Shown here piece by piece: positions 2,583 through 20,450 of a stretch of 23,918 nucleotides of DNA. A program made the position numbers and the translations under genes. Position 1 is the first letter of the stretch. Each line of letters starts with the position of its first letter. The notes below the pieces were generated by a model, which was not told the DNA's origin, did not search any database, and saw only the letters and a program-made list of their open reading frames with translations. Origin of the DNA: Bacteroidota bacterium (GTDB lineage: Bacteria > Bacteroidota > Bacteroidia > NORP154); assembly GCA_002401055.1 (NCBI GenBank), contig NVRZ01000029.1, positions 1-23,918 on the forward strand, written 5' to 3'.

Positions 2583-2910
2583 TCTTATTTCAGTGGGGAT
2601 CTTCAAAAAAATTTGGAATAAAAGCTTGGAATTTGGTAGATAATAAAATTTAATGGATGTTATTATCGCTCATGAAGTATAATTGAACAGTTTATTATGC
2701 TATCGCTTCTTTTTTTAAACGTTCAATCGGGTGAGGTGTTTTCGTCTTGAATAAATGCAGTTAAGCGAAAAATGGTTGCTACTGTAACATAATTTTGCAA
2801 TATTCGTATCACTATGCCCCTTTTAACCCTATATGTGAATGAAGTAGTTCGGGTGAGCTCGGTACAAATTGATTGGGGAAAGGGCCGTGGTAAACCTGAA
2901 CAGAGTTCAA
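2583..2910 (+). other. Intergenic region upstream of the adhesin operon
   Basis: This 328-base AT-rich gap has no convincing gene. It must hold the promoter of the adhesin operon. A good match to the -7 consensus, TAATTTTG, lies at 2790-2797, but no TTTG-like -33 box is at the expected 17-23 base distance (a GTTG at 2775-2778 is too close). If used, the leader to the ATG at 2911 would be about 105 bases, leaving room for post-transcriptional control. A T-run at 2710-2716 has no GC-rich stem before it, so I do not call a terminator. The frame is open from an in-frame TTG at 2869, considered under the adhesin gene. Confidence 0.4.
2790..2797 (+). promoter_or_regulatory. Possible -7 promoter element (TAATTTTG) for the adhesin operon
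   Basis: The octamer fits the TAnnTTTG -7 consensus of the Bacteroidota primary sigma factor. The -33 partner is poor, so the call rests on one half-site and on its position upstream of the adhesin gene. Confidence 0.35.
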
Positions 2911-5900: not shown

Positions 5901-8499
5901 AGCCTCTCCATTTTTGAGTGTTGATTCAGTAACTACTACCGAAGCTGCATGCGACAGCACATGCGATGCAACTGCAGAGGTGATCGGTTCAGGAGGAGTT
6001 TCTCCTTACACATATGCTTGGTCTACTGGAGATGTAGGGCCTATAGCTGACAGTTTGTGTGCATCAACTTTTTATATAACCGTAACCGATGCTAGTGGTT
6101 GTACAAGCAGCAATGACATTATGGTTGCCGGGCCCAATGGCTTTATGAGCAGCATAACCAGTACAACTATGATTACCACATGCTTTGGTGATTGTACAGG
6201 AGGAGCAACAGCTACAGGCATTGGAGGCATAGCACCATACACCTATTCTTGGGTTGATAGCCTGGGTGCATCCGTTGGTGGCTCAAGCTCGAGTATTTCA
6301 GGATTGTGCGCTGGTACTTACTATGTGATAGTTAAGGATGATAGCAGCTGTGTTACAACTGCCCCATTTACCATAACTCAGCCGGTCGCCCTGGTGCCCA
6401 CCATATGCAACCTTCAGGATGTAACCTGTAACAGTGCTTGTGATGGATCAGCCACAGCATGTCCATCAGGGGGAACAGCACCCTTCACCTATTTATGGGA
6501 TGATGTTGGCACACAAACAACTGCCATGGCAACAGGATTGTGCGCAGGCACCTATAGAGTAGATGTTACCGATGCTCAGGGCTGTATTACGACCGATTCG
6601 AATGTTGTAATTGCAGAACCTATTGCACTGGTAGCAACGATCACCGGCACCACCGACGCGAATTGCGATACACTGGCACCAATAGGGACAGCGAGTTCAG
6701 AGGCTTCAGGCGGAGTAGGCACCCATCAATTTGTTTGGAACACTACGCCAGCGCAAACAGACTCAGTTGCAACAGGCTTATTGGCAGGCACCTATACGGT
6801 AACGGTAACTGATGCCACTGGATGTACTTCTACGGCCACGGCAAGTGTGGGAGATACCTCAACCATGTCTGCTTTGATCACCGACTTGGTGTTGAGTTCT
6901 TGTACGATATGTGATGGAAGTGCAACAGTTACTCCCGTGGGAAGTGTATCTCCTTATGTTTATGATTGGCTAGATTCAATGGGTGTTGCTATTGGTAAGA
7001 CAGACTCCATGGCAGACTCGCTGTGTGGTGGATTGCATAGAGTAATAGTGATGTCAAGTGTATATTGTATCAGATCCATACCAGCCGATACAGAATCACC
7101 ACTTCCGGTAGCATCCTTTACCGGGCTTAGCACACCGCATTGCATTGGAGATCCAATAGATGCATTGGTTGGCACACCTTCGGGAGGTGTATTTAGTGGA
7201 CCAGGAATTACAGGATCTGATTTTGACCCAACCCTAGCTGGAGCAGGAACACATGTTATAAAATATTTATACGTGGACGGTGGAGGCTGTGCAGATAGCA
7301 CCACGCAAACGGTAGAAGTTAACACCCTTCCTACAGCCTCATTTACAGGCCTTGACACGGGCTATTGTGTTGATGCAGCAGCAGTGGCGTTAGCAGGAAG
7401 TCCACCGGGGGGTACGTTTAGTGGGCCGGGTATAAGCGGTGTTATCTTTGATCCTGCCACAGCAGGTGCAGGTACCCATACCATAGAATATATGTTTACC
7501 AGCGTTGATGGCTGTTCAGACATCAGCACACAGACGGTTAACATTAATGCGCTACCAAGTTTAGCGATCATCGGACTAGATCCTGTTTATTGTGTTGATG
7601 CTCCCTCGGCTGTATTAACCGGATCACCCGCAGGTGGTACATTCTTTGGAACGGGTATAACTGACAGTCTCTTTACTCCGGCAATTGCCAATATTGGAAC
7701 CCATGGTATAACTTATTCTTATACAGACGGAAAAGGCTGTAGTCAGGATACCGTTCAAATAACCGATGTGTTCCCGGGATTCTCGGTGGCGGCTACAGGC
7801 ACCGCCACTTGTGAGGGCCCAGGAAGTGGAACCGCAACTGCAGTTCCTGCAGGCGGGACTAGTCCATTTGTGTATCAGTGGGATGACGCTAATATGCAAA
7901 CAACTGTAACCGCAATTGATTTACCGAGCGGAATAATTACTGTTATTGTAACGGATGTGAACACGTGTATATCTACAAGTAGTGTGACCGTGGTGCAGTT
8001 GACGAACTTCTTAGTTGAAGCAACGACAACAGATGGTACAAACGGAAATTTTGACGGAAGTGCAAGTGTCACAATCGTCGGAGGTTCAAGTCCATTTACT
8101 TATGTGTGGTCAGATGGCCAAAGTACAAGCTTGGCAACAGGGTTAATAGCGGGCGATTATACGATTATCGTGACGGATTCGAATGGATGTCAGGTAACGG
8201 AGCAAGTAACAATAGCCAATGCACTGGTTTTGGTAACGGCTACTGCATTCACGCCTAATGATGATGGAACCAATGACGGATGGATCATTGAGGACATAGA
8301 ATACTTCCCAGAAGCGGATATAACAATATTTAATCGTTGGGGAAATCTGCTATTTAGTTCGAGCGGAGAGGAATATGCTAAGTCGCCATGGGATGGAACT
8401 TACCAGGGTAAAAAGCTACCTTTCGGAGCATATTTTTACTTAATTGATCTAAACAATGGCGACAAGCCGTTGACCGGATCCGTAACCATATTAAGATAA
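2911..8499 (+). CDS. Giant multi-repeat surface adhesin with gliding-motility-associated (type B) T9SS C-terminal domain
   Basis: 1862 residues from the ATG at 2911, chosen because it puts a signal peptide at the N-terminus (basic start, hydrophobic core IFIAIILLLPF, likely cleavage after GGIAQ); the TTG at 2869 would add 14 residues before it. Order of parts: a MAM/jelly-roll-like domain (~28-197), an Ig-like domain (~200-285), four ~84-residue 'GTWTQQSGPG...YVFRWTE' repeats (~286-621), five ~75-residue 'GTFSGPGI...GTHTITYTYTDGNGC' repeats (~622-998), five SprB-type repeats (GSATVTPVG, SPYTYAW; ~999-1394), three more 75-residue repeats (~1397-1623), two SprB-type repeats (~1624-1769), and a final domain (FTPNDDGTNDGW, IFNRWGNLLF, WDGTYQGKKLPFGAYFY; ~1772-1862), the type B sorting signal. 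Each 75-residue repeat has a Cys pair that may form disulfides. By family, this is a T9SS-exported surface filament of the SprB kind, for adhesion or gliding; the ligand is unknown. Its stop overlaps the start of the SprF-like partner. Confidence 0.93.
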   Translation: MFNVRNRTLIKIFIAIILLLPFGGIAQFTTLLSEDFEACGEASLPNCTWVSANFSGSSRWTTTNNACVITGTYSLAVASDASYCAYNYAGNTNKIANTGFSSAGYQLLDLSFNWRCVGEGPSFDYGKVVYSVDGVTWTDVTGALYLGQAGTQTVSNMAIPAAINNDASVFIGFRWIDDGSIVNAPGFTIDDIVIQGEQMTPDNPPSPTSNSPQCLSVTITRSGSPPSPSNVIWYWQGTSCGTSTVLGSGATFTATTSGTYYIRAYNTISGLWSTGCGSVVVVVDSPLPTANAGVGGDECDRNFQFNATPSIGTGTWTQQSGAGVPTYTPDANTPNAVVDVTLYDTYVFRWTEANGSCVDFDEITVNFYEQPVAIPGSGSNECDLNYTFGATPSVGGGTWTQQSGPGFSLYSPSANSPAANVTASAYGTYIYRWTEVNGTCSDFAEITVVFTEDPISNAGPDGEECDLFHTLAATPSVGSGLWSLQFGPGLVSYFPNAASPSAITTVTAYGTYIFRWTETNGICSDFDDVAVTYYQQPISDAGTGGIACGLPRAFTLVASASVGTGTWTIFSGPGTAIYAPSQNSPTSQATVSVNGTYVFEWQEVNGICSDFDTVTVVYVANPTVSFSGLGGPHCISDTAAIPLTGSPLGGIFSGNGIVGDNFYANLAAVGINSISYTYTDTNGCSSTDAQDVDIIGLPIVYFTGLVNPYCVDDVTAAVLTGFPSGGTFSGPGIIGNTFTPSIAGIGLHSITYSYIDGNGCSAFETQSADVHALPVVTFSGLSGQYCLDDGIASLTGSPSGGVFSGNGITGNNFDPALAGTGTHSITYSYTDGSGCFNDSTTTVDVNALPIVSFSGLGSTYCVLDSGVILTGSPVGGSFTGVGISGSSFFPTIASVGTYTITYTYTDGNGCVGSEDHVVIITGVPVASFTGLSTSYCESNPGALLTGSPVGGTFSGPGISGDTFYPSLAGVGTHTIQYMYSDGGGCADSTTQSVIVNAASPFLSVDSVTTTEAACDSTCDATAEVIGSGGVSPYTYAWSTGDVGPIADSLCASTFYITVTDASGCTSSNDIMVAGPNGFMSSITSTTMITTCFGDCTGGATATGIGGIAPYTYSWVDSLGASVGGSSSSISGLCAGTYYVIVKDDSSCVTTAPFTITQPVALVPTICNLQDVTCNSACDGSATACPSGGTAPFTYLWDDVGTQTTAMATGLCAGTYRVDVTDAQGCITTDSNVVIAEPIALVATITGTTDANCDTLAPIGTASSEASGGVGTHQFVWNTTPAQTDSVATGLLAGTYTVTVTDATGCTSTATASVGDTSTMSALITDLVLSSCTICDGSATVTPVGSVSPYVYDWLDSMGVAIGKTDSMADSLCGGLHRVIVMSSVYCIRSIPADTESPLPVASFTGLSTPHCIGDPIDALVGTPSGGVFSGPGITGSDFDPTLAGAGTHVIKYLYVDGGGCADSTTQTVEVNTLPTASFTGLDTGYCVDAAAVALAGSPPGGTFSGPGISGVIFDPATAGAGTHTIEYMFTSVDGCSDISTQTVNINALPSLAIIGLDPVYCVDAPSAVLTGSPAGGTFFGTGITDSLFTPAIANIGTHGITYSYTDGKGCSQDTVQITDVFPGFSVAATGTATCEGPGSGTATAVPAGGTSPFVYQWDDANMQTTVTAIDLPSGIITVIVTDVNTCISTSSVTVVQLTNFLVEATTTDGTNGNFDGSASVTIVGGSSPFTYVWSDGQSTSLATGLIAGDYTIIVTDSNGCQVTEQVTIANALVLVTATAFTPNDDGTNDGWIIEDIEYFPEADITIFNRWGNLLFSSSGEEYAKSPWDGTYQGKKLPFGAYFYLIDLNNGDKPLTGSVTILR
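3766..4773 (+). repeat. Four tandem ~84-residue repeats (block A) of the adhesin
   Basis: Protein-level repeats begin near 3766, 4021, 4270 and 4519. Each reads P-[IVL]-x-x-A/P-G, an EC[DG] near the start, a GTW core, a Tyr-rich strand GTYIFRWTE, and ends with C-S-D-F-D and a beta strand. Each has two cysteines about 60 residues apart. They have diverged at DNA level and look like PKD/Ig-like beta-sandwich stalk units. Confidence 0.8.
4774..5904 (+). repeat. Five tandem ~75-residue Cys-pair repeats (block B, first run)
   Basis: Units start near 4774, 5002, 5230, 5455 and 5680. Consensus: P-[IV]-V-x-F-[ST]-G-L, a Tyr-Cys, LTGSPxGG-x-FSGxGI, F-x-P, AGxGTHxIxYxYxD, and GC. Cys of the YC and GC positions are present in almost every unit. 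The same unit recurs three times at 7099-7779. Confidence 0.8.
5905..7098 (+). repeat. SprB-type repeat block (five units)
   Basis: Five units carry the SprB signature: a Cys, then GSAT or equivalent, a glycine pair, SPYTYAW or a variant, and later AGTYxVxVTDAxGC. The fourth (near 6660) is degenerate. This kind of repeat makes up most of SprB, the gliding adhesin of Flavobacterium johnsoniae. Confidence 0.75.
7099..7779 (+). repeat. Three further ~75-residue Cys-pair repeats (block B, second run)
   Basis: Units start near 7099, 7330 and 7555 and match the earlier block, so the adhesin alternates block B and SprB modules. The segment GPGI...DGGGCADSTTQ of the first unit here is nearly the same as in the unit at 5680, suggesting duplication or gene conversion within the gene. 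Confidence 0.75.
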
Positions 8500-9506
8500 T
8501 GGCTATGAGAAAAGAAATTATTAGATACTTCATATTAATGTTGCTGACAGTGGCTACTCTATATTCTGAGGCGCAGCAGCTTGCACAGTACAGCCAATAT
8601 TTACACAATCCTATATTGTTGAATCCTGCAACCGCGGGTATTAATAATAATTTCAATATTGATTTGAGCTATAGAAATCAGTGGACGGGATTCAATGAAG
8701 CGCCTAAGACGTTCTATTTTAGTGTAAATGCCACTTTGAATAGGGAAAAGAGTTCCTCTTCCCTTCGACTTAGTAGGCCTGGCTACACAAAATCAAAAAA
8801 GAAAGAGAGATTCGTCACGCACGGTCTTGGAGGATATATTGTTGCTGATACGTACGGCGCATTTTCAAATACTTCGGGTTACCTAAGTTATGCTGTTCAT
8901 TTAAGGATTACACACTCTATTAAATTAGCACTCGGTCTTTCTACCGGACTTTCGAATTGGAAGCTAAACGTGACGGATCTTGGAGTATCTGATCAAAATG
9001 ATGAAACGTATAACTACCTCACTTCACAAGATTTCTCAAAGACCTTTTTTGATGTTCAGGGAGGTCTTTGGATGTACTCGGAAAGTTTCTACTTGGGCTA
9101 CTCAACGGCACAGTTGCTTCAAAACCAGATAAGGGCGGTAAATGTACCAGCCACTGCAAAAATAAATGTTCATCACTTTATAACAGGAGGTTATAAATTT
9201 AAGCTAGGTAGGGATCTTAGTATTACGCCTAGCGTTCTTCTAAAATACATGACTCCTACGCCGGTATCAGTTGATGTTACCACGAAGGTTAATTTCAGGG
9301 AAATGATTTGGGGTGGCTTGTCTTATCGCCACAAGGATGCTGTAGTTGTGTTTCTGGGATATGAGTTGAATAAGATGATAAAAATTGGGTATTCTTATGA
9401 CATTACGCTATCAGATATAAGGAAATACAGTTCTGGTAGTCACGAAATAATTTTGGGTGCAAAACTCTTTAAGACCGCTCAAAAATCTTCAATTAGCTTC
9501 TTGTAA
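8499..9506 (+). CDS. PorP/SprF family type IX secretion partner (outer-membrane protein)
   Basis: 335 residues. The ATG shares its A with the stop of the adhesin (TAATG), a coupling overlap; a second ATG two codons later is possible. A signal peptide is clear (RKEIIRYFILMLLTVATLYSEAQ). The mature start is the family hallmark: QYSQYLHNPILLNPATAG, then LSYRNQWTGF and PKTFYFS; the remainder is made of alternating amphipathic strands, as expected for an outer-membrane beta barrel, with GSHEIILG near the end. In F. johnsoniae, SprF is needed for secretion of the adhesin SprB, and type B-domain T9SS cargo depends on a cognate PorP/SprF-like protein, usually encoded next door, as here. I therefore infer that this protein binds the type B domain of the upstream adhesin and helps deliver or anchor it. 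About ten residues run past the usual family end. Confidence 0.92.
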   Translation: MAMRKEIIRYFILMLLTVATLYSEAQQLAQYSQYLHNPILLNPATAGINNNFNIDLSYRNQWTGFNEAPKTFYFSVNATLNREKSSSSLRLSRPGYTKSKKKERFVTHGLGGYIVADTYGAFSNTSGYLSYAVHLRITHSIKLALGLSTGLSNWKLNVTDLGVSDQNDETYNYLTSQDFSKTFFDVQGGLWMYSESFYLGYSTAQLLQNQIRAVNVPATAKINVHHFITGGYKFKLGRDLSITPSVLLKYMTPTPVSVDVTTKVNFREMIWGGLSYRHKDAVVVFLGYELNKMIKIGYSYDITLSDIRKYSSGSHEIILGAKLFKTAQKSSISFL

Positions 9507-9522
9507 ACTTATCGTAATTGCT

Positions 9523-11445
9523 GTGAGCAAATTAAGCTTTATAGTTTTCTTAATGTGGCATTTTGGTGCATCGTCATATGCCCAGCTCCTGTATGAGGAG
9601 CCGGTGAAGTTAGGGGATGGTGTAAACTCAACGGCTGAGGAAACTATGCCCCTTGTCTCTACAGACGGAAGCATCTTGTATTTCTCACGAATCTTATATG
9701 GTGAAAATGTTGGTGGTGAAACTGCAGGGCAGGATATTTGGTATGCAAAGGGAGGTGAAGAAGGGTCATGGACAGAATCGAAGAATGACCTTAACAAACT
9801 CAACAATAAGTTCGACAATGCCATTGTAGGAATCGGTGAGGATGGTAAGACCTATTACCTCTTGAACAGCTATAAAAAGAAGGGTAAAATGGGAGTTTCG
9901 GTAACGACCTTAGAAAATAGAATCTGGTCTGTGCCGTCCAGCCTTGACATTCCTGGGCTGGAGTCATTAAGTGGGCTATATGGCTTTTACATGCATCCAT
10001 CGGGTGATATCCTTATGATCTCAATGGAGGGAGCTGATTCATTTGGCAAAGAGGATATCTATGTTAGCGTGAAAGGTGATGACGGGAAGTGGTCTGAGCC
10101 CATTAACTTGGGGGCAACTATTAATTCTGAGGCATTTGAGATTACTCCTTTTTTGGATGAAGAAACAGATAATTTATACTTTTCAACGGACGGCAGAGAT
10201 GGGCTTGGATCAGCAGATATATATGTTTCAGAAAGGATGGACGATACTTGGACAAATTGGACTTCTCCCGCAAACTTAAAAGAACCCATTAATTCGGCGG
10301 GTTTTGATGCCTTCTTTTCTTTAAATGCTTCTGGAGACGTTTTCTTTTCCAGTAATCGAGGGAGTGAGTTGAATGACATTTATTACTCAAAAATAGTAGA
10401 GGCTAAGGCGGAAACAGCATCGCAGCCTGAACCACTTCGTGCTCAAGAAGAGGCTCAATCTGCAGAATCTCAGATATTCTATGTTCAAACATCCGCCCCT
10501 GTTAATACTGAAGAAGAAACAACCCAAGAATCCGCACCCAGTGCTAGTGCCTCCGAATCGGTAGCTGATGTTATGAATCAGATTCTATCTGAAGAATCAG
10601 TTGATGACACCGAAGCTGAGTACACCCAAATCTATGAAGCTCTGGGCACAGTTGAGGCAGAAGATCCAAGTGATGATGCAGACGCCCAAGCAGTTACAAA
10701 AACTGCAACTATAACGAGCCAAGATGAAGAAGATACCACCCCAGTAACCTCTGTTGAAAATGAAGAGTCTGAAATTGCTGTACAAATGGATGATGAGCAA
10801 GAAGCGCAAACTTTGGCGGAGACTACAAGTGATGATGTTGAGAGAGTAGAGGATTCAGCCATTGAAGAATTAGTTGCAACGGAATTACCTTTTGCTGAAG
10901 AAGAAGAGATGGCATCAGATGTTGTAGAAAATATTGATACAGAGCAGTCTGATGCAACTCAAGAGTCGGAACTGCCCATTGAACCAGATGTAGCATCTGA
11001 AGTATTGGAAGAGCCTGAAGAAACTCCTGAGGTTGTTTTGGAAGAAATTGCAGAGGAAGTTGTAAGCAAACCTATCGCCGCTAGTAGCTCACCAGTACTG
11101 GCTTCTGGAGCAACAGAGAGAATCTATTTCGAACATAACTCTTCCTATTTAGGAGAGAAGGCGCAACAACAACTTGTGGAGCTATCCAAACGCCTATCTT
11201 CTATTATGTCAACGAACAAAATTGAAGTTATTGGGTATTCTGACAATACGGGTGAACAGCATTATAACTTATGGATAACGGAGAGAAGGGCGAACAGGGT
11301 TATCGCTTTTTTGGCCGAGAATGGCGTTGAATCCTCGGTTTTTGTTGCAGATTGGAAAGGTGCCGAAAATCAGTATAAGCAATGTTCTAGCTGTACTGAA
11401 CAAGAAAATGAGGCCAATAGGCGGGTCGAGATTATTGTAAGATAA
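9523..11445 (+). CDS. PD40 (WD40-like) repeat OmpA-family protein with long acidic linker
   Basis: 640 residues from the GTG at 9523, 16 bases after the preceding stop. I prefer this to the upstream GTG at 9457 because it yields a compact signal peptide (SKLSFIVFLMWHFGASSYA, then Q). Parts: PD40 beta-propeller-like blades (~23-290), recognisable by PVKLGDGVNS, LYFSR, GKEDIYVS, WSEPINLGATINS, NLYFSTDGRDGLGSADIYVS and VFFSSNRG; an acidic Glu/Asp/Ser/Thr/Ala-rich linker (~293-526), probably disordered; and an OmpA peptidoglycan-binding domain (~531-640). In the last, the Asp of YSDNTG and the Arg of ITERRA are 15 residues apart, the spacing of the two residues that bind diaminopimelate in OmpA. 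An unusual Cys-Ser-Ser-Cys lies near the end. It should be periplasmic, bound to the cell wall, and linked to the SprF-like protein or adhesin; adhesin-SprF-OmpA trios are common in this phylum. Its stop is 18 bases from that of the opposing operon. Confidence 0.88.
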   Translation: MSKLSFIVFLMWHFGASSYAQLLYEEPVKLGDGVNSTAEETMPLVSTDGSILYFSRILYGENVGGETAGQDIWYAKGGEEGSWTESKNDLNKLNNKFDNAIVGIGEDGKTYYLLNSYKKKGKMGVSVTTLENRIWSVPSSLDIPGLESLSGLYGFYMHPSGDILMISMEGADSFGKEDIYVSVKGDDGKWSEPINLGATINSEAFEITPFLDEETDNLYFSTDGRDGLGSADIYVSERMDDTWTNWTSPANLKEPINSAGFDAFFSLNASGDVFFSSNRGSELNDIYYSKIVEAKAETASQPEPLRAQEEAQSAESQIFYVQTSAPVNTEEETTQESAPSASASESVADVMNQILSEESVDDTEAEYTQIYEALGTVEAEDPSDDADAQAVTKTATITSQDEEDTTPVTSVENEESEIAVQMDDEQEAQTLAETTSDDVERVEDSAIEELVATELPFAEEEEMASDVVENIDTEQSDATQESELPIEPDVASEVLEEPEETPEVVLEEIAEEVVSKPIAASSSPVLASGATERIYFEHNSSYLGEKAQQQLVELSKRLSSIMSTNKIEVIGYSDNTGEQHYNLWITERRANRVIAFLAENGVESSVFVADWKGAENQYKQCSSCTEQENEANRRVEIIVR

Positions 11446-11463: not shown

Positions 11464-13548
11464 TCAGACTCGCACCCCAAAAATGATCATGTCATCTATT
11501 TGCTCCCCTGTTCCAATCCAGTCTGTAATCGTTTTATCCAATGTAATTCGTTGATCTTCCATGGGCTTTTGATGAATCTGCATCAATAAATCTTGAAAAG
11601 GCCCATAGTAAAACTTTTTGTCTTCAGGTCCGCCTCTTTGATCGGGAAACCCGTCAGAAAATAAGTAGACAACATCACCCTTTTGAAGCTGTATTTTATG
11701 ATCTGTAAACGTGTCGTCGGGTTTGGTGCCGCCTAAGAACAACTTTTCCCCTTTCCATTCTGATAGTTCGCCATCTCGGATCATATAAAGTGGATTGTGG
11801 GCTCCCGCATATGTCAACTCCAATGTGGTTTTATTGAATGAGCAGAGTGCGATATCCATTCCATCCTTCACCTCCCATTCTGCCTTGTTATTTTGGTTAT
11901 CACCATCGTTTTCAGTCTGTGATTTGGTTTTCGTCTGTAATCGCCGGATCACTTCTTGGCTAAGCAGTTTAAGGATTGCGCTTGGCGTAAGGCTTTCATA
12001 TTGCGTAACAATTTGATTCAGGATGTTATTACCAATTATTGACATAAAGGCTCCTGGAACTCCATGGCCAGTACAATCTACCGCGGCGAATAAAATGGAA
12101 TCACCATAATCCTTAACCCAATAAAAATCACCGCTTACTTTGGCTTTTGGTTTGAACAAAATCATTGAATCAGGCAGAAGGCTAGCAACCTTGTCAAATG
12201 ACGGCAATACAGCAGTCTGTATTCTCTTCGCATAGTCAATACTATCTGAAATCTGCTGGTTTTGTTTCGCCAGTTGATCACGGTTTTCCTCTATTTCACT
12301 TTTCTGTTTAAATATCTCGTTCTTTTGCTTTGTTATTTCGTCGTTTTGCTTTGCCAGATCAATATTCGCTCTTTGTTTTGCTTTGTAGCGGCTATATATG
12401 AGAATCACCAAGAGAATTACCAAGAGCAGCGCTCCCGCGCCGGCGTATATAATGATTTCTATATTCTTGGCTTCAGCCATCTTTTTATCCAGCTCTGCTT
12501 GGTTTAAATTGTTTTCGGCGTTGAGTAGTTGTATTTTGTTTTCCTGTTGTGCGGCTCCGTGTTCCTTTGCCAAAAGTCGTATGTTGTAATCATCCTGTTG
12601 AATTCTCGCCTTTAACTCAATCAACTGTTTAGCTTCCGTAAGTCCTGCAATTTGGTCCAAAAAGTTTGATGCCTGCTGCTGGATCTTAATAGATTTTTCT
12701 TTAACCTCCTCCAGATACTGTTGCGACTCTACCTCCTGGTCTTTTTCATATTGCGTCTTGGAGTCGCTGTACTCTTCCTTGTTGCGCATTACGATAGCCA
12801 AATTGTTTTTAGCAGAATTATATTGTGAAGAAAGATTATTCTTTTTTGCGATAGACATTGCCTCTTCCAAGTTCTTTTCGGCATTACCATAGTTCCCCAG
12901 ATTAGAATAAGCAGAGCCTATTCTGCTAAGCGTAGCAACTACGCCCTGGTGATTCCCCTTGCCACGATCAATAGATAAGGTTTTTTTGTACATAGCAATA
13001 GCCTGATCAAAGCGACCCTCTTTATGATATATATCGCCAAGGTTTGACTGCACATGCGCCACACCATCCTTATCGCCAAGCGATTCATATATTTTCAAGG
13101 CCTTTTTGCAAAAAGTACCAGCGCTGCTATATTTCTTAAGATGCTTGTATTCTAACCCTATTTGATTAGAAGTATAGGCTTGAGCATTACGGTTGTTCGT
13201 CTGCGAGAAAATAGCTAGCGCCTTTTTGAAAGAATTCAGTGCCTTGTTATGATCGTTGAGGAGGTCATGTGCATTGCCAAGATTGATATGTGCATTAGAC
13301 TCTCCGTTAGAATATTTATTCTCAATAGAGAGCTTCAAGGCCTCTTCAGCGTATTGAATGCTTTGTATGGCATCCTTTCGTAGATATAGCTTTGCCAGTT
13401 GGTTTAAAACCTGTGCCTTCTCATTACCCAACGCTGACTCCAACTTCGTTTCGAGACCTTGAATTTGACCTTGCGCTACTGAAGCTTCGTATGTGAACAC
13501 AAGGATAATAACCAGTAATGCGAAGTCTCTAATCCGGTTATAAAACAT
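11464..13548 (-). CDS. TPR sensor - transmembrane - SpoIIE/PP2C phosphatase (SiaA/RsbU-like)
   Basis: 694 residues; last gene of the minus-strand operon, 15 bases after the PorE-like gene. Parts: signal peptide (~1-25), about six TPR units (~35-260; e.g. INLGNAHDLLNDHNKALNSF, SNLGDIYHKEGRFDQAIAMY), an alpha-helical coiled coil (~265-360), one membrane helix (~363-386), a cytoplasmic coiled coil with near-perfect heptads (EITKQKN, EIFKQKS; ~395-440), the linker SIDYAKRIQTAVLP, and a PP2C-type phosphatase (~460-694). The metal-binding motifs are intact: GDFY 473-476, DCTGHGVPGAF 491-501, DGMDIALC 562-569, AGAHNP 581-586, SDGFPDQ 631-637 and DDM 685-687. With signal peptide and one helix, the TPR array should face the periplasm and the phosphatase the cytoplasm. 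In partner-switching systems (RsbU, SiaA) this enzyme dephosphorylates a Ser/Thr phosphoprotein; the obvious substrate is the SiaC-like protein of the same operon. A different target cannot be ruled out. Confidence 0.9.
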   Translation of the reverse strand: MFYNRIRDFALLVIILVFTYEASVAQGQIQGLETKLESALGNEKAQVLNQLAKLYLRKDAIQSIQYAEEALKLSIENKYSNGESNAHINLGNAHDLLNDHNKALNSFKKALAIFSQTNNRNAQAYTSNQIGLEYKHLKKYSSAGTFCKKALKIYESLGDKDGVAHVQSNLGDIYHKEGRFDQAIAMYKKTLSIDRGKGNHQGVVATLSRIGSAYSNLGNYGNAEKNLEEAMSIAKKNNLSSQYNSAKNNLAIVMRNKEEYSDSKTQYEKDQEVESQQYLEEVKEKSIKIQQQASNFLDQIAGLTEAKQLIELKARIQQDDYNIRLLAKEHGAAQQENKIQLLNAENNLNQAELDKKMAEAKNIEIIIYAGAGALLLVILLVILIYSRYKAKQRANIDLAKQNDEITKQKNEIFKQKSEIEENRDQLAKQNQQISDSIDYAKRIQTAVLPSFDKVASLLPDSMILFKPKAKVSGDFYWVKDYGDSILFAAVDCTGHGVPGAFMSIIGNNILNQIVTQYESLTPSAILKLLSQEVIRRLQTKTKSQTENDGDNQNNKAEWEVKDGMDIALCSFNKTTLELTYAGAHNPLYMIRDGELSEWKGEKLFLGGTKPDDTFTDHKIQLQKGDVVYLFSDGFPDQRGGPEDKKFYYGPFQDLLMQIHQKPMEDQRITLDKTITDWIGTGEQIDDMIIFGVRV

Positions 13549-13563
13549 ATCTGGGGTTTACAG

Positions 13564-16260
13564 CTAGTTAATATTTACGGCTTGTGATACGCTTATCTTC
13601 TTACCATTATAAAAGGCGATGAGAAATGCATCGGAAAATCCGGCAGATCTAACCTGAACCTGAGCATTTTTGGCAGCATCGTAGGTTTTGAATACGCCTA
13701 CACTGCAGCGATAAATATTGCTTGGTAGTTTATTCGCCATTACTGGGTAAAGACCTTTCAACACTTTGGCACCAGGCAACTTCGAATATGAACCTATTTG
13801 AACCTTATAGATAATACCTGGAGGTAATTCGGGATCTATCGGGATTTTATTCGTTGCGTAGTAGTTCATTTTTGAGGTTGAAAATTGATCTTCAGATAAG
13901 TTATCCCGAGTCGTGTTAGCCAAAACCTCTTCAACTACCTCCATCTTATCTTCAGTTTTTACGAGCTTCGGTTCTGTCGATGAGGGAAGTACTTCCTCTA
14001 CTTCCTCCACTTTGCTAGGTTCTTCGCTGTCAAAACTTTCCATTTCCGCGATTACCTCCTCGGTTTTAGATGTGGCATTATCAATTTGAAGACTGCCAGA
14101 TTCTTCAATTATCAGTTCCATTTCTTTTGGACTACTGTTTTCAGTTGGAGTATTCGTATTACTCGTTTCCATATTTGAAGTAGGTGCAGCATTAACAACA
14201 GTTTGTCTTGACTTGTTAAATTCTAATATTTTGAATTCAGTTCTTCTATTTTTAGCTCGTCCTTCTTCAGTGTCATTGGTGGCCTTTGGTTGACTGAACC
14301 CATAACCTTCAGAAACCATTCTGTCCGCTGCAATGCCATTCTTTATCAGCCAGGTAACCACCGATTTTGCCCTATTATTAGATAATTTCTGATTGTACCC
14401 AACAGTCCCCTTGTTATCAGTGTGCCCTGAAATTTCAATTTTCAGGCTCTTGTTTTTCCCCATGAAAGTCACGACTCGTTCCAACTCGATTATTGATTGA
14501 CTTTTCAAGGCAGCCTTGTCAAAATCAAAGAAGATAAAATTAAGAACCATCGATTTTCCTACATCCATGCTGTTCATATGGATGTTCTTAAATAGCTCAT
14601 AAAATGGTGATGATTCTGGAATGTCGATGTTTTCCGAATGGAAGAAATAACCATCAGCCGTAACTGTAACGCCATAATCTCTGCCAGATGGGAGGGAGAA
14701 TAGAAACTCACCGGTTAATTTATTTGATTTGGAGTTGGCAACTATCTCGTTTTTGTCATTGTCTATCACTTCAATATAAGCTTCAATTGGAAGTCCGGTA
14801 TTCTTGTCGATGATCTTACCTTTTACAAGAGTCAACTCTGGGCTTGATTCGGTTTCCAAAAAGGTTATCATATAAATATCTTTTTCACCCATTCCATCAG
14901 CCTTGATGGATGAATAATAACCGCGCTCACCATTTGCGCCCATTACAAAAAACACATCATCATCAGGTGTGTTAATTGGATAACCAAGGTTCTCTGGACT
15001 GGACCAGGTGCTCGACTTCTTGTTGTAAATTGATTTAAATAGATCATATCCGCCCATCGTCTTGTGCCCTTGTGAGCTGAAGTAAAGTGTTTTGCCGTCA
15101 GGATGCATGAACACAGCCTCTTCATTGTATTCTGAGTTGATGGTAGCACCCAAATTTGATGCGACATCCCACTCTCCATTGCTTCCTAGCTTAGAAATGT
15201 AGATATCATTTTCACCAAACCCCCCAGGTCTATCACTTATGAAATAAATGGTTCTTCCATCATAAGAAAAGCAAGCCGTTGGTTCCGTATATTCAGAATT
15301 GATGTTTTTATTCAGCTTTATTGGCTCGGACCAAACATCTCCATTCAATATACATTCATATATATTTCCGTCACCCTCGTCATCTTTGTATACGAACAGT
15401 TTTTGACCATCAGGGGCAAGACCAACGGTAGCGTCGTGGAATTCTGTGTTTATGGGTTCACCAATTCCTCGTGCAGTACTCCAAGTACTATCTTCTTTTT
15501 TCTTTGACTTATATATATCTTCATAATAGACATCAAAATTTGGATCACGATTACCTCCTGTGGTGCTGTCCCTCCTTGCTGTGAAGTACATTACTGCCTC
15601 ATCAGCAGAGATTAGCGGATGGTAGTCTGCAAATTCTGAGTTTATTTGACTCCCTAGGTTGGTTATCTTCACCTTAACGGGAGATTCTACTAGTTCCTTA
15701 CCATATTTACATTCTTCAATCTTCTTGTTTGCAATCTCAATTTGCCCTTTGTTTTCGTCTGAAGCATTGCTAACATAAACGCCATAAGACTTGATGGCCT
15801 CATCCCATTTCATATTTAACTGGTAGCCATGTCCTAGCAAGAAGTGTATAAAGTTATTGAGCGGTGCATCCAAGGCAGTCGCCTTTTCAAGATAGCCTAG
15901 AGCTTGTGGCTTATGAGAAGAGTACAAGTAGCAATGTCCAATTTTCATATTTAGCTCAGCATTATTAGGATTGAATTTCTGTGCCAGTTCAAAATGGGCA
16001 AGGGCTTCGGAATACACAGAATTCTTGTAGCTAGCTTCACCTCTTTGCAATTCTTTCAAAGCTTCTTTGAATCCCTCTTTGTCGCTTTCGAAATTTGCCT
16101 TCTCAAAGGAAATGTTTCTTGAGCCTGATTGGGATAGCGCCGGGTAGCAGTTAAGTACAGTAACAAATGATACAAAAATCAGCAACTTAAGATAGGATTG
16201 GGTTCTTCCCAAAACGGTGTACAGGTTAATGCTGCTCAGTGAATATAGATGCCTGATCAT
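13564..16260 (-). CDS. PorE-like TPR - PD40 - CRD - OmpA - SPOR envelope protein
   Basis: 898 residues from the ATG at 16260; the signal peptide has a long N-region (cleavage near ALSQ, ~44), so a TTG at 16212 is an alternative start. Order: TPR units (~62-160), PD40 propeller blades (~195-465; LGATINS, LYFSSQGHKTMGGYDLF, ISDRPGGFGENDIYIS), a carboxypeptidase-regulatory-like beta sandwich (~476-548; VKGKIIDKNTGLPIEAYIEV), an OmpA domain (~570-680) with peptidoglycan-binding Asp615 and Arg630, a Glu/Ser-rich linker (~690-805), and a C-terminal SPOR domain (~815-895; YKVQIGSYSK, YRCSVGVFKTYDAA). TPR-WD40-CRD-OmpA is the layout of PorE, a peptidoglycan-bound T9SS component of Porphyromonas gingivalis. 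The added SPOR domain, which in other proteins binds glycan strands lacking stem peptides at division or remodelling sites, is an extra. It lies between SiaC-like and phosphatase genes, so it may be the envelope partner of the switch. Whether it is the core PorE or a paralogue cannot be decided here. Confidence 0.88.
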   Translation of the reverse strand: MIRHLYSLSSINLYTVLGRTQSYLKLLIFVSFVTVLNCYPALSQSGSRNISFEKANFESDKEGFKEALKELQRGEASYKNSVYSEALAHFELAQKFNPNNAELNMKIGHCYLYSSHKPQALGYLEKATALDAPLNNFIHFLLGHGYQLNMKWDEAIKSYGVYVSNASDENKGQIEIANKKIEECKYGKELVESPVKVKITNLGSQINSEFADYHPLISADEAVMYFTARRDSTTGGNRDPNFDVYYEDIYKSKKKEDSTWSTARGIGEPINTEFHDATVGLAPDGQKLFVYKDDEGDGNIYECILNGDVWSEPIKLNKNINSEYTEPTACFSYDGRTIYFISDRPGGFGENDIYISKLGSNGEWDVASNLGATINSEYNEEAVFMHPDGKTLYFSSQGHKTMGGYDLFKSIYNKKSSTWSSPENLGYPINTPDDDVFFVMGANGERGYYSSIKADGMGEKDIYMITFLETESSPELTLVKGKIIDKNTGLPIEAYIEVIDNDKNEIVANSKSNKLTGEFLFSLPSGRDYGVTVTADGYFFHSENIDIPESSPFYELFKNIHMNSMDVGKSMVLNFIFFDFDKAALKSQSIIELERVVTFMGKNKSLKIEISGHTDNKGTVGYNQKLSNNRAKSVVTWLIKNGIAADRMVSEGYGFSQPKATNDTEEGRAKNRRTEFKILEFNKSRQTVVNAAPTSNMETSNTNTPTENSSPKEMELIIEESGSLQIDNATSKTEEVIAEMESFDSEEPSKVEEVEEVLPSSTEPKLVKTEDKMEVVEEVLANTTRDNLSEDQFSTSKMNYYATNKIPIDPELPPGIIYKVQIGSYSKLPGAKVLKGLYPVMANKLPSNIYRCSVGVFKTYDAAKNAQVQVRSAGFSDAFLIAFYNGKKISVSQAVNIN

Positions 16261-16301
16261 TTATTGATTTCGGTAAAAGCCTTAATCTAAAATAGCTGGA
16301 A

Positions 16302-16706
16302 TTAAATTACGATGTACTCAAAAGGAATTCCCGTCATACTCGCGAACTCTTCACCTGATTCTTTCATGTCGATATCCGGTTCTTCATAATACCATTTAAC
16401 CGTAACATTCATGTCATCTTTTCGAAAAGATTCAATTTTTTTCAGGATATCCAAAATAAACTTGGCCGAAGTGCTATTAAAATATTCAAACCTAAATTCG
16501 AAAATTGTAGAATTTGATTTTTCATTAAACTTGCTATCTCTCCAATACCGAAGAGCGTAATAATTATCCATCCAGTTCAATATTATCTCGTAAAACTTAC
16601 TCGCGTTTTCTGGCCTCGATTCACCTGACATTTCAAATGTGTTTGAACCCGGGTCCATTATTACGTTCGGTGTAAATTCCGTTGCTTCTATAATTAAAGC
16701 CTCCAT
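16302..16706 (-). CDS. SiaC-like regulatory phosphoprotein (DUF1987)
   Basis: 134 residues, starting 6 bases after the stop of the SiaB-like gene, so surely co-transcribed. The layout fits the SiaC/DUF1987 family: an N-terminal strand pair with the FTPNVIMDPG and FEMSGESRPENASKFY segments, a helix with WMDNYY, the phosphoacceptor region RFEYFNSTSAKFILDILKKIE (split here at residues 71-91), and a C-terminal VTVKWYYEEPD strand followed by an acidic tail. In Pseudomonas SiaC the phosphorylated Thr lies in an N-T-S-S stretch; here the equivalent is Asn77-Ser78-Thr79-Ser80, so the phosphosite is Ser78 or Thr79. By family it is an anti-sigma-antagonist-like protein, phosphorylated by the SiaB kinase and dephosphorylated by a PP2C phosphatase, its unphosphorylated form binding an effector. 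In Pseudomonas that effector is the diguanylate cyclase SiaD; none is seen here. Small, complete, and well placed. Confidence 0.87.
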   Translation of the reverse strand: MEALIIEATEFTPNVIMDPGSNTFEMSGESRPENASKFYEIILNWMDNYYALRYWRDSKFNEKSNSTIFEFRFEYFNSTSAKFILDILKKIESFRKDDMNVTVKWYYEEPDIDMKESGEEFASMTGIPFEYIVI

Positions 16707-16712
16707 CGTTTT

Positions 16713-17264
16713 CTAAACTTTTATCTCCAGTATAAAGAATGAAATTTCGTCCTTTACCGTATTGAATTTATATTCAAGTGGGTTATCTGACTTTATTGCC
16801 ATGTCTATGATACCCAATCCAGCACCTCCGGCATCTGTTACCTCAGAAGAAAGAATAGTGTCCCGGTATTTTGACTTTAATTCGTCGCGGCTCAATTGAT
16901 TAATATCATCTAGTTTCTCCTTTAGTATTTCCTTATCATCGTCTTTTATAAGGTTACCCACGGTAACATAAAAACCTTCTTCGCTGGTGCCCAATAAAAA
17001 TAGTGGGTAGTGAGGAGTAAGGTCATTCGACTCAAACTTACCTTCGCCTGCATATCGGTTGATGTTCTCCAAACATTCAACCATAATGTTGTAAAGCTTT
17101 TTTCTGACAGGTAATTCCATGTTCAGATTTTGCATCTGAACCTTTGCGTTTGAAAGCAGAGAATTTACAATCTTGTTGTTAAACTCACCCTTATATGCAA
17201 GCAGAATCTGCTTATCCAGCATTGTGTTGTGGATTCCATATATATTATCAACATTGACAGTCAT
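16713..17264 (-). CDS. SiaB-like protein kinase (DUF6272, GHKL-type)
   Basis: 183 residues; first gene of the four-gene minus-strand operon. The protein fits the SiaB family of small GHKL-type ATPases acting as Ser/Thr kinases. Visible motifs are an N-box-like ECLEN at 63-67 (Glu63 and Asn67, in the helix VECLENINRYA) and a glycine-rich DAGGAGLGIIDMA at 144-156, resembling the ATP-lid G-box of SpoIIAB/RsbW-type kinases. There is no signal peptide or membrane helix, so it is cytoplasmic. By family it phosphorylates the SiaC-like protein encoded immediately downstream; a PP2C phosphatase reverses this. The kinase-phosphoprotein-phosphatase set in one operon makes the assignment firm, even though the family is divergent. 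A dyad overlapping a -7-like element sits 37 bases upstream of the start and is the probable operon promoter. Confidence 0.87.
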   Translation of the reverse strand: MTVNVDNIYGIHNTMLDKQILLAYKGEFNNKIVNSLLSNAKVQMQNLNMELPVRKKLYNIMVECLENINRYAGEGKFESNDLTPHYPLFLLGTSEEGFYVTVGNLIKDDDKEILKEKLDDINQLSRDELKSKYRDTILSSEVTDAGGAGLGIIDMAIKSDNPLEYKFNTVKDEISFFILEIKV

Positions 17265-17300: not shown

Positions 17301-17329
17301 GGGTACTATAACAAATATAGAAAATACCC
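17301..17329 (-). promoter_or_regulatory. Putative promoter of the siaB-like operon with overlapping dyad
   Basis: On the minus strand a TATATTTG (17312-17319) matches the TAnnTTTG -7 consensus and would place transcription start near 17305, about 40 bases before the ATG. No good -33 box is seen. The element lies inside a dyad: GGGTA (17301-17305) pairs with TACCC (17325-17329), and CTATA (17306-17310) with TATAG (17316-17320), with four unpaired bases on one side. It could be an operator, or a weak terminator of the gene upstream on this strand. Confidence 0.4.
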
Positions 17330-17360: not shown

Positions 17361-20300
17361 CTATTGGCCAGAGTTAGACATTACCAACAATTGCTCACCT
17401 CTTCTTGTTCCATTGACATAATATCTGATGGAATATACTCCGGCTGCTACTGAGGCACCAGCATCTGTTTTTCCGCTCCAGTGTATATAGTGATTACCAG
17501 TGTGATAAGTGCCTGAAATCAATATAGATATTACCTCGCCTAACATATTCGATACAATGATTGACACTGCAGAGGCGCGTTCTAGACTAAACGAAATTGA
17601 GATACTCCCAGATGTGGGGTTGGGGAATACACTAAAATTATCATAGAAGAAGAATTGATTGTCTGGTGGGAGACCGGTAACAATACTAAGGTTAGACTGA
17701 ACCAGGCTGTCACATCCATCTATACTTAAGAAGGTCTCCAGAAGGACAGTATCGCTGGTATAAACGACTCCGAAATAAGATTGGCCAGATTCAATTATCG
17801 TGTCGACAATAATCGAAAATGTAGAGTCAACCTTCAGTATAGTCGTTACAATACTGTCGCACCCATTTGAGCCAGTTAGTGTGTCAATAAGAGCAGTATC
17901 AGCAAAATAAATTGTTCCATCAAAGACCTCGCCCTTACATATGGTGGCATTAGAAGAGCTGGATGAAATGGTTACAATAACAAGGTTGGTTGACCGAATA
18001 CTGTCGCAAGAGAATTGATTTTGTACAGTGTCAATCAGCGTAGTATCATCAGAATACGCGGTTCCATTGTGTAAGTCCCCTTGGCATAATATAACTGTTG
18101 ACGAACTGAGAATAGGAGAGTCTACATTAACATTCGTTACAATAATGCTGTCACATCCATTAATACCGGTTAGTGAGTCAGTGACTGTTGTATCAGAAAA
18201 GAATTGAAATCCTCCGAAAATGTCTCCTTGACATATGCTAACAGTATCGGACACGAATGATTTGACTAAAACGATAATACTTGTTGAAGTAATGCTATCA
18301 CAGGAGACTTGATTCTGCAAGGTGTCAATCAGTGTCGTATCAGCAGAGTACGCAGTTCCATTGTATAACTCCCCTTGACATAAGCTTACAGTATCGGACA
18401 CGAATGATTTGACTAAAACAATAATACTTGTTGATATAATGCTATCGCAGAGGAATTGATTTTGTACGGTGTCAATCAATGTTGTATCAGCAGAATACGC
18501 AGTGCTGTTAAATAATTCTCCCTGGCACAGTGAAACGGCCGGCGTAGTAAAGAAAATAAATGGGTTTACGGTAATGTTTGTGGTCACGGTGCTATCACAG
18601 CCTTTAAATCCTGTTAGATATGATACCAATGTCGTATCAGAGGTATAGGTATTACCCCAAAAGCTATCCAACTCACAAAATGTCGTATCAATTACTACAC
18701 TATCAGCTGATATCAGGCCTAATATTGTGACAACAATGCTGTCATTACCCGAATAGGCAGGCAGCGTGTCTCTATAAATACCGCCGACAAATTGAAATGT
18801 ATCTTCCAGAAAGATGCTATCTCCACCGCAAATGTCTTCATGCATATAAACGATTCCATAAATAGTTGAGTCTTCTATTATTTGAAGGTGTTGATTGGGG
18901 TAGATATTGGCAAAGGTCTCCTGGTTGCCATTCAGCCAGGTAACGATAACACTATCCACAATTGTGAGCGAACCCAAACCAAAGTAAGCGTTACTCATGC
19001 TATGTGAAGCATGGCTAGATCCTCCATCCACCTCTCTTATCCAACTTCTCCCCCCGGCAAACAGCCTGATGCGTGACCCAAATCCATCCCGATTATTTAC
19101 CACGCCTTGTAGGCTAACCGAAAGCCAGTTGTTGGAGTCAGCATTAGCGTTTTTGTATAGCAGGAAGTGACTGGATGACGAAGTGTCGGCGGTAACTACG
19201 CTCACCGCTACGTCCAGGCGACCGTCCATATTAATATCACCCAGTGCCAGACCTCTGGCGTAAGTTGTGTCGTTAAAGCCCTCTAAATCTGACACATCTG
19301 TAAACGTAGCATCGCCATCATTTTTGAAAAGCACGTTAGGGTTGAATGGCGTGTTGTAGGTAAAGGAATCGGCAGTGATGTAACCATTGGCTACAATTAA
19401 ATCTAAATACGTGTCGTTATCGTAATCAAAGAATGCAGTGCCCCACCCCACGGCTAAAGAAGTGCTATCGGTATAGGTGTTGGCTGTCTCGCTGGTATCC
19501 GTCTTATCCAGAAACGTGCTGTTTCCCTGGTTGTTTCTCATTACATTCTTCCCCAGATTCGTAATGTAATAATCTAAATCCCCATCCTCATCATAATCTC
19601 CTATAGCTATTCCCATTCCGTACATGGAATCATTCACGGAAGCCGAAAAAGCGATATCTGTAAAATTACTGGAAGGGAAATTGTTTTCAAGTATCGTGTT
19701 GGGTCTTACCCAAGCGCCAAAATCGTTGGCGATGTATATATCCATATCGCTTTCGTTATCAAAGTTGGTAAATGCAGTGGCCAATGCGCAGCCCGTATCA
19801 GCCACCCCGTAAGCCAAGCCTGATTCGATAAAGGTCTGATTGCCATTGTTTATGTACAGAAAGTTGGCAAAACAAGTATAATCAAAGCCATTTTGTGGAA
19901 CAGAATTGACAAGGTCCACGTAATTTGCCACGTAAATATCTAGTAATCCATCTTTGTTTACGTCGCCGAATGTCACAGAAATACTGTTTGATGAATCCGC
20001 GACATTAGCACTTGCAGAGATGTCGGTGAACGTGCCATCCCCATTGTTTTTGAATAATACGTTCGTATATCCCTGCCAGGTTGTAACAAAAATCTCGCGA
20101 TAGCCATCATTGTCTATGTCGCCCGTGGCAACGCCAATCGTTAAAATGGAATCTGTTCCCAATATTCCTGCGATTGTGGTGACATCAGTAAAAGTGCCGT
20201 TTCCATTGTTGCGGTAAAGCTTGTCAGAAGAAGTACCTCCAGTTATGTACAAGTCCTGAAATCCGTCCATGTCGTAATCAAAGAAAGCAACACCTCCTCC

Positions 20301-20450
20301 CATTAGCATGGGGTGAACATGTACCATATTAACGCCAGACTGTAGGCTAACTTCTAAGAATGACTGGCCAAGTGTGTTGCTAAAATTTGAAACCAACACA
20401 AACGCGATTACTCCAACATTCCTCAATACAAGTTTTATTTTCTGCAACAT
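17361..20450 (-). CDS. FG-GAP/VCBS propeller - ASPIC/UnbV - Cys-repeat stalk protein with type A T9SS tail
   Basis: 1029 residues with a signal peptide (KIKLVLRNVGVIAFVLVSNFSNTLGQ). An FG-GAP/VCBS beta-propeller fills ~30-440, with Ca-binding DxDxDGxxD loops at 58-66, 111-119, 163-171, 285-293 and 405-413 (a variant at 342-350). An ASPIC/UnbV domain follows (~442-527; SVSLQG, NRDGFGSRIRLFAGG, FGLG, VTWLNGNQETF). Next come about eight ~48-residue repeats (~530-925) with a Cys near the start of each and a second Cys in a GCDS or SCDS motif. The end (~940-1029; VFPNPTSGSISISF, VSNMLGEV, AGVYSIRYYVNG) is the Por-secretion type A signal. The family layout resembles CRTAC1-like secreted propellers; the repeats probably form a disulfide-bonded stalk. 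It should be exported by the T9SS and attached or released at the surface. Substrate or ligand is unknown. It lies upstream of the Sia-like operon on the same strand, separated by 96 bases and a probable separate promoter. Confidence 0.92.
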   Translation of the reverse strand: MLQKIKLVLRNVGVIAFVLVSNFSNTLGQSFLEVSLQSGVNMVHVHPMLMGGGVAFFDYDMDGFQDLYITGGTSSDKLYRNNGNGTFTDVTTIAGILGTDSILTIGVATGDIDNDGYREIFVTTWQGYTNVLFKNNGDGTFTDISASANVADSSNSISVTFGDVNKDGLLDIYVANYVDLVNSVPQNGFDYTCFANFLYINNGNQTFIESGLAYGVADTGCALATAFTNFDNESDMDIYIANDFGAWVRPNTILENNFPSSNFTDIAFSASVNDSMYGMGIAIGDYDEDGDLDYYITNLGKNVMRNNQGNSTFLDKTDTSETANTYTDSTSLAVGWGTAFFDYDNDTYLDLIVANGYITADSFTYNTPFNPNVLFKNDGDATFTDVSDLEGFNDTTYARGLALGDINMDGRLDVAVSVVTADTSSSSHFLLYKNANADSNNWLSVSLQGVVNNRDGFGSRIRLFAGGRSWIREVDGGSSHASHSMSNAYFGLGSLTIVDSVIVTWLNGNQETFANIYPNQHLQIIEDSTIYGIVYMHEDICGGDSIFLEDTFQFVGGIYRDTLPAYSGNDSIVVTILGLISADSVVIDTTFCELDSFWGNTYTSDTTLVSYLTGFKGCDSTVTTNITVNPFIFFTTPAVSLCQGELFNSTAYSADTTLIDTVQNQFLCDSIISTSIIVLVKSFVSDTVSLCQGELYNGTAYSADTTLIDTLQNQVSCDSITSTSIIVLVKSFVSDTVSICQGDIFGGFQFFSDTTVTDSLTGINGCDSIIVTNVNVDSPILSSSTVILCQGDLHNGTAYSDDTTLIDTVQNQFSCDSIRSTNLVIVTISSSSSNATICKGEVFDGTIYFADTALIDTLTGSNGCDSIVTTILKVDSTFSIIVDTIIESGQSYFGVVYTSDTVLLETFLSIDGCDSLVQSNLSIVTGLPPDNQFFFYDNFSVFPNPTSGSISISFSLERASAVSIIVSNMLGEVISILISGTYHTGNHYIHWSGKTDAGASVAAGVYSIRYYVNGTRRGEQLLVMSNSGQ
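18241..18434 (-). repeat. Near-identical direct repeat, 147-base period, inside the FG-GAP protein stalk
   Basis: A 32-base stretch at 18241-18272 recurs exactly at 18388-18419, and after one mismatch the match continues for 14 more bases. The similarity reaches further on both sides with scattered changes. The period is 147 bases, one 49-residue stalk unit. This points to a recent duplication or gene conversion of the SFVSDTVS...CQG unit, unlike the older divergence of the other units. Confidence 0.85.

Follow-up and report, generated by a model that had tools for sequence, protein, structure and literature searches.

The window, that is the entire contig NVRZ01000029.1 of 23,918 bases from a Bacteroidota bacterium of a small marine family without cultured members (label f1; source genome 60% complete), carries a four-gene operon encoding a SiaB-like kinase, a SiaC-like phosphoprotein, a PorE-like envelope protein and a TPR-PP2C phosphatase with one transmembrane (TM) helix. 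What is new is a variant of the Sia-type switch standing in one operon with a wall protein derived from an anchor of the type IX secretion system (T9SS). The reading that we tentatively prefer, with somewhat less than even confidence, is a Sia-type switch in which the phosphatase reads the state of this T9SS-anchor-like protein on the wall. Homology supports the switch; the step from the PorE-like protein to the phosphatase and the output are inferred only. Parts, motifs, predicted topology, gene order, promoter box and PorE-like lineage are all read from sequence.

A Sia-type module in a four-gene operon

A SiaB-like kinase and a SiaC-like phosphoprotein had been proposed in a first-pass annotation of this DNA, and both proteins score above their family cut-offs, with 149.4 bits against 85 for NCBIfam NF038262 (SiaB_fam_kinase) and 113.9 bits against 24.5 for Pfam SiaC (PF09345). 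Both fall below the cut-offs of the narrower equivalog models (77.1 against 225 for SiaB, 67.9 against 150 for SiaC). An alignment of the SiaB-like protein with 6kko_A takes in the E...N and GAGLG stretches; we take this chain to be SiaB, its record reading putative serine phosphatase. The counterpart of T68 in Pseudomonas SiaC is S78 (bases 16475-16473), which lies inside an N-S-T-S motif present in 7/7 operon copies of the family, and the equivalent position holds S or T in all 91 SiaC proteins collected. In Pseudomonas, T68 is phosphorylated by SiaB and dephosphorylated by SiaA (excerpts of PMC7647112). Judged by sequence, a Sia-type kinase/phosphatase switch in this operon is likely, the reactions of SiaB and PP2C on SiaC being carried over by analogy from the Pseudomonas system. 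Elsewhere in the source genome, a paralogue cluster (L038:148-1479) holds one SiaB and two tandem SiaC genes.

The coordinates of the open reading frames (ORFs; Table 1) bear out the first description of four genes on the minus strand with 6, 41 and 15 bases between them. Where genes were called by script they were called as ORFs, with small genes and start positions approximate. The genes siaB, siaC, porE-like and TPR-PP2C keep the same order on one strand in 7/7 genomes of the f1 family, which spans three genera with SiaB identities of 69-90%, and an arrangement kept at such identities is not due to chance. In genome G003 the porE-like frame is broken in two, an ORF of 882 aa and an 87-aa SPOR ORF. 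The relatives among named records are the metagenome-assembled genomes Flavobacteriales bacterium UWMA-0021, UWMA-0041, UWMA-0023, NORP269 and NORP157, and Bacteroidetes bacterium B1T1B10.

Upstream of siaB lies the sequence TATATTTG, a match to TAnnTTTG, which we take to be the Bacteroidota -7 consensus. Such a box stands 55-72 bases upstream of siaB in 6/7 family members, the exception being G004; none of the 26 other gene starts in the operons has one, and the background is 0.043 per 100 bases. This position-specific box supports a single transcript for the four genes. Scans for sigma-70-type promoters and for terminators gave no more matches than shuffles, and a relaxed -33/-7 pattern gave 15 matches over the whole window against 11.8 expected; as the latter is near expectation, only the position-specific box count was used. 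Family models and promoter box together uphold the earlier proposal that a module of Sia-type kinase, phosphoprotein and PP2C shares its operon with a PorE-like wall protein.

Table 1. Features of the window, with positions on the contig (position 1 is its first base).
Feature	Position	Strand	Remarks
siaB-like gene, SiaB-family protein kinase, operon gene 1	16713..17264	-	183 aa; SiaB_fam_kinase, Pfam DUF6272
siaC-like gene, SiaC-family phosphoprotein	16302..16706	-	134 aa; Pfam SiaC, alignment to 6kko_C
PorE-like periplasmic protein	13564..16260	-	898 aa; signal peptide, TPR, PD40 propeller, CRD-like, OmpA, SPOR
OmpA domain of PorE-like protein	14532-14245	-	aa 577-672
SPOR domain of PorE-like protein	13809-13621	-	aa 818-880
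TPR-TM-PP2C phosphatase	11464..13548	-	694 aa; signal peptide, TPR part, cytosolic PP2C/SpoIIE (predicted)
TM helix of phosphatase	12456-12400	-	aa 365-383
Bacteroidota-type -7 promoter box	17312..17319	-	55 bases before siaB start
SprB-repeat protein with CHU_C type B T9SS signal, convergent operon gene 1	2869..8499	+	Pfam SprB, CHU_C
PorP/SprF-family outer-membrane protein, convergent operon gene 2	8499..9506	+	NCBIfam T9SS_PorP_fam 254.8 against 90.55
PD40/OmpA protein, convergent operon gene 3	9457..11445	+	ends 18 bases from phosphatase stop
FG-GAP/ASPIC-UnbV protein, weak type A T9SS sorting tail, upstream of siaB	17361..20450	-	

The phosphatase and its putative envelope partner

The phosphatase matches the SpoIIE/PP2C model of Pfam with 74.8 bits (cut-off 25) and many TPR models. 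Its PP2C domain aligns over the full length with 6k4e, which we take to be SiaA, and the motifs GDFY, VDC.GHGVPG, DGF.DQ and DD are kept in that alignment, so the metal motifs called intact at first sight are indeed present. The full-length SiaA model NF038263 reaches only 172.5 against 700, the match being confined to residues 398-694. A single hydrophobic helix together with a signal-peptide-like N terminus suggests that the TPR part lies outside and the PP2C domain inside. Phosphatases of this TPR-PP2C kind are much expanded: 61 of the 99 genomes in a sample of the class have matches at E up to 1e-70, many of them at least 11.

The envelope protein had been described as PorE-like, with TPR, PD40, carboxypeptidase-regulatory (CRD), OmpA and SPOR domains. 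The domain order holds, TPR-PD40-CRD-OmpA as in the PorE of T9SS, with scores above the cut-offs for OmpA (77 against 27.2), PD40 (62.7 against 20.9) and SPOR (23.8 against 21). The description is modified in two respects: the CRD of the window protein stays below its cut-off (19.1 against 32.3), and the protein is a paralogue rather than the closest PorE counterpart. Setting aside an engineered TPR protein, the PDB entry that it matches best is 6top, from the OmpA family, which we take to be the C-terminal domain of PorE. No Cys near the signal peptide is conserved among six aligned family members, and a lipobox was not found there.

Against the NCBIfam PorE model the operon protein scores 304.9 (cut-off 600). 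Better PorE counterparts are likewise under the cut-off, the queE-linked one of genome G015 (L267) at 328 bits and that at L278 at 283, so it does not sort these paralogues. That the operon protein might be the main PorE of its genome was rejected, as a better counterpart exists elsewhere in 6/6 relatives: another gene matches the queE-linked PorE at 566-697 bits in each of them, and the operon protein does so at 375-407 in five, among the matches listed. In the incomplete source genome the operon protein is itself the best match (408), no better counterpart having been found there. The better counterpart follows queE in several families, where queE-like genes were assigned by a motif. A corresponding order is described for Porphyromonas gingivalis, in which pg1058 follows pg1057 (excerpts of PMC5053529).

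In the PorE-like tree (a quick method applied to hand-chosen loci, with rows cut at 760 residues and those with more than 60 unknown residues omitted) the closest relatives of the operon proteins are L132 from genome G004 and L117 and L118 from family f24, and L132 and L118 sit within clusters of CHU_C type B, PorP and PorE genes. These sequence relationships place the operon's envelope protein, with its SPOR tail, among the paralogues of the type B cargo/PorP/PorE lineage. The PorE of P. gingivalis binds peptidoglycan and is part of a complex with PorP and the type B protein PG1035 (excerpts of PMC9143113).

A search with the last 119 residues, which reached only relatives that have short words in common with them, narrowed 5.8 billion to 143 candidates and recovered seven proteins among these, one being an exact copy of the query. 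The notion that SPOR-tailed PorE-like proteins are unique to the f1 family was rejected, as family f30 has one too: a PD40/OmpA protein of 968 aa whose tail is SPOR-like (L219:6445-9351), which falls on a separate tree branch and has neither SiaBC nor PP2C in its stretch.

Taken together, the parts lend themselves to the following mechanism. The operon would be read from a single promoter, and its products would couple a Sia-type partner switch to an envelope protein held on the wall. Cytosolic SiaB would phosphorylate SiaC, most likely at S78 and possibly at T79. The phosphate would be taken off again by the PP2C domain of the phosphatase, the only part of the operon with a helix predicted to span the inner membrane. 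In the periplasm, the TPR array of this enzyme most likely binds the PorE-like/SPOR protein of the same transcript; that protein should attach to peptidoglycan via OmpA and SPOR, and it descends from the PorE-like partner of T9SS type B cargo/PorP clusters. Anchor loading or wall state would then set phosphatase activity and hence the level of unphosphorylated SiaC, which would bind a cytosolic partner.

As to the output, the cyclase SiaD is activated by SiaC in Pseudomonas, and the authors of that work propose for other bacteria that adjacent proteins are modulated by DUF1987 proteins (excerpts of PMC8457831). No GGDEF gene is present in the operon or was found in any of the six relatives (69-91% complete), so the Pseudomonas output, the diguanylate cyclase SiaD, is probably absent here. 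In the source genome, one stretch of 35 residues within a frame of 57 aa matches GGDEF above the cut-off. Cyclic di-GMP (c-di-GMP) was rejected as output on these grounds, though not absolutely, the genomes being incomplete and the source genome having this short match. Components of T9SS are present in the f1 family, with SprA in 7/7 genomes and GldM in 6/7 (5/7 over the cut-off); GldM was not found in the incomplete source genome.

Reach of the arrangement and competing readings

SiaB-family genes are common in Bacteroidia (at least 66 of 100 genomes). The f1 type of SiaB was found in the source genome only, among 395 genomes of the phylum (E up to 1e-38), a sample that did not include the six f1 relatives; metagenomes widen the SiaB clade with relatives at 49-68% identity, 28 clusters lying at no less than 49%. 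We compared 94 other SiaB clusters, among the matches listed, 46 of which have full five-gene flanks and two of which are possible repeats. SiaC is present in 79 of the 94, and PP2C occurs within five genes in 33 and in one strand run with SiaB in 17. A gene with PD40 and OmpA within five genes in the same strand run was found in none of the 94; a divergent one occurs within five genes at two clusters (L163 and L184), and a PD40 gene without OmpA lies near two more (L046, on the other strand, and L066, in the same run). Neither SiaB nor SiaC was found within five genes at any of 60 PorE-like loci, as far as their stretches reach. These 60 loci, and the 27 phosphatase loci considered below, are high-scoring matches rather than a random sample, and many of their stretches end within five genes. 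With 0/94 SiaB clusters and 0/60 PorE-like loci, the whole four-gene arrangement is family-specific as far as sampled. An order confined to close relatives had been named as a refutation of the first proposal, and this applies in part: the order is family-wide, in seven genomes and three genera, but beyond the family neither the f1 type of SiaB, among the 395 genomes, nor the arrangement, among the other loci sampled, was found.

The idea that SPOR proteins accompany SiaBC in general was rejected, as only L066 and L155 had one among the 89 stretches scanned. At L066 (1662-9856), siaB, siaC and a plsY-like gene precede the gene of a 2118-aa protein that has PD40 and, at its C terminus, SPOR; at L155, siaB and siaC are followed by a 586-aa SPOR-like protein. 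A second, separate neighbourhood joins a Sia kinase gene and PorE: at 6 of 30 PorE loci, in three families, a SiaB-family gene with no SiaC in view is divergent from a queE-like gene and porE (L267, L268 and L270-L273, from genomes G015, G059, G055, G091, G009 and G051). Genome G095 (L269), of the same family as some of these, is without it. At L280 (G072), a queE-like gene and porE are immediately preceded, on their own strand, by a PP2C gene that the end of the locus truncates.

Phosphatase and PorE-like genes also pair outside the f1 family. A PD40/PorE-like neighbour stands at 6 of the 27 best phosphatase loci there, in three families (f24, f16 and f31). The phosphatase of f24 (one genome) is sister to the operon-holding clade (98/94) and lies tail to tail with a PorE-like gene, which is part of a CHU_C-PorP-PorE cluster and belongs to the sister pair of the operon's PorE-like proteins (node 97); the fetched stretch holds no SiaBC. 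The order TPR, PorE-like, TPR-PP2C, PorE-like is found in 6 of the 7 f16 genomes examined, all of one genus (L128 and L137-L141), again without SiaBC in the fetched stretches. In f31 the phosphatase stands next to a PD40 gene, itself cut by the locus end, in 2/2 genomes of one genus. The phosphatases of f16 and f31 occupy separate branches of the phosphatase tree, from which domains of less than 100 bits or 190 aa, rows with more than 20 unknown residues, duplicates and, with the exception of nine chosen SiaBC-adjacent loci, rows without a TPR match were excluded. A general association of PorE-like with PP2C genes was rejected: of the 60 PorE-like loci, only L128 (f16) has such a neighbour on the same strand and only L118 (f24) has a convergent one.

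Several points weigh against a phosphatase that reads the PorE-like protein. SiaBC were seen beside a PorE-like gene in one strand run in one small family only, and PorE-like genes in general are without PP2C neighbours, as the 60 loci attest. One f16 genome, G161 (L126), has a TPR-sized gene and two PorE-like genes in a row and lacks the phosphatase. TPR-PP2C genes are very numerous, so that a single adjacency may be due to chance, and co-transcription alone could reflect a shared regulon. In an alternative reading the Sia switch is genuine and the PorE-like gene a passenger or a co-regulated output, an envelope anchor expressed together with a signalling module to which it is unrelated, the TPR part of the phosphatase sensing something else. 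This alternative, which we regard as plausible though doubtful, draws on the confinement of the SiaBC association to one family as far as sampled and on the common occurrence of PorE-like genes in other clusters without PP2C. It fits less well with the tight spacing and an order maintained across three genera at 69-90% SiaB identity, with the f24 sister phosphatase beside a sister PorE-like gene and no SiaBC in the fetched stretch, or with the pairing on separate branches in f16 and f31.

The same pairs in f16 and f24 could instead mean that phosphatase and PorE-like protein are a signalling pair of their own, with SiaC not the main substrate and SiaBC a recent addition for a separate purpose. 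Cross-reaction is possible, since the genomes are rich in TPR-PP2C phosphatases and encode several paralogues of SiaB and of SiaC. We consider this reading improbable, given the 33 of 94 SiaB clusters with PP2C within five genes, the 17 of 94 in one strand run with it, and a PP2C domain that aligns with 6k4e throughout. Signalling from inside out, in which the state of SiaC alters the phosphatase and its TPR domain recruits or releases the wall-bound PorE-like protein, would be permitted by the predicted topology but is very improbable, as enzymes with outer sensory domains normally signal inward and we know of no Sia or SpoIIE-type system working in that direction.

Genomic setting and comparison with known systems

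T9SS-type genes flank the operon on both sides. The convergent OmpA gene is found at the equivalent place in 5/6 relatives, G004 being without it, and beyond it lie, in the two loci checked, PorP-like and type B cargo genes (window) or a PorP-like gene (L039). Upstream of siaB, a gene of similar length takes the equivalent place in 6/7 family members, the FG-GAP/ASPIC-UnbV domains having been checked in the window and L039. A second TPR-PP2C gene follows the first in 5/7 family genomes, the window and G004 being the two without. In the phosphatase tree, the second copies of G001 and G002 fall beside the whole clade of operon and f24 phosphatases (96/95), those of G005 and G006 inside it with weak support, and that of G003 far off on a long branch. 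These different positions indicate that the second slot was probably filled more than once.

PorXY-SigP controls type IX secretion. If the preferred reading is true, serine/threonine phosphorylation joins PorXY-SigP in this control, and the operon names a concrete candidate input for a Sia-type switch of Bacteroidia; a literature search, at the level of titles and the beginnings of abstracts, returned only Pseudomonas or off-point papers and neither input nor output for SiaB-family genes of Bacteroidia. The further step, a c-di-GMP-free Sia-type switch that reports the state of a T9SS-type surface anchor and so acts as an envelope/secretion checkpoint distinct from PorXY-SigP, is on balance rather unlikely.

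Each part has known relatives from which it departs. The TPR-TM half of the phosphatase (residues 11-403) is matched by the NCBIfam model of FimS of P. gingivalis with 55.8 bits (cut-off 600), whereas the output domain of FimS is a histidine kinase. The best NCBIfam match of the PorE-like protein is CHU_0125 of Cytophaga hutchinsonii (331.9, under the equivalog cut-off of 620), which shares TPR, PD40 and OmpA domains but is 656 aa long, and for which the excerpts of PMC5891637 name no SPOR domain. With the PorE of T9SS the operon protein has in common the order of TPR, propeller, CRD-like and OmpA domains and the lineage of CHU_C-PorP-PorE clusters (excerpts of PMC9143113 and PMC5053529); unlike PorE, the operon protein has 898 aa, a SPOR tail and no lipobox, and its gene is operonic with siaBC instead of queE. 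The closest parallel to the module itself is SiaABC(D) of Pseudomonas aeruginosa, likewise a single operon with a SiaB kinase, a SiaC with S/T at the T68 position and a membrane PP2C (excerpts of PMC7647112). It differs from the present operon, which has no SiaD, GGDEF having been found in 0/6 f1 relatives, and includes a PorE-like gene, and in which the sensor half of the phosphatase, unlike that of SiaA, is a TPR array.

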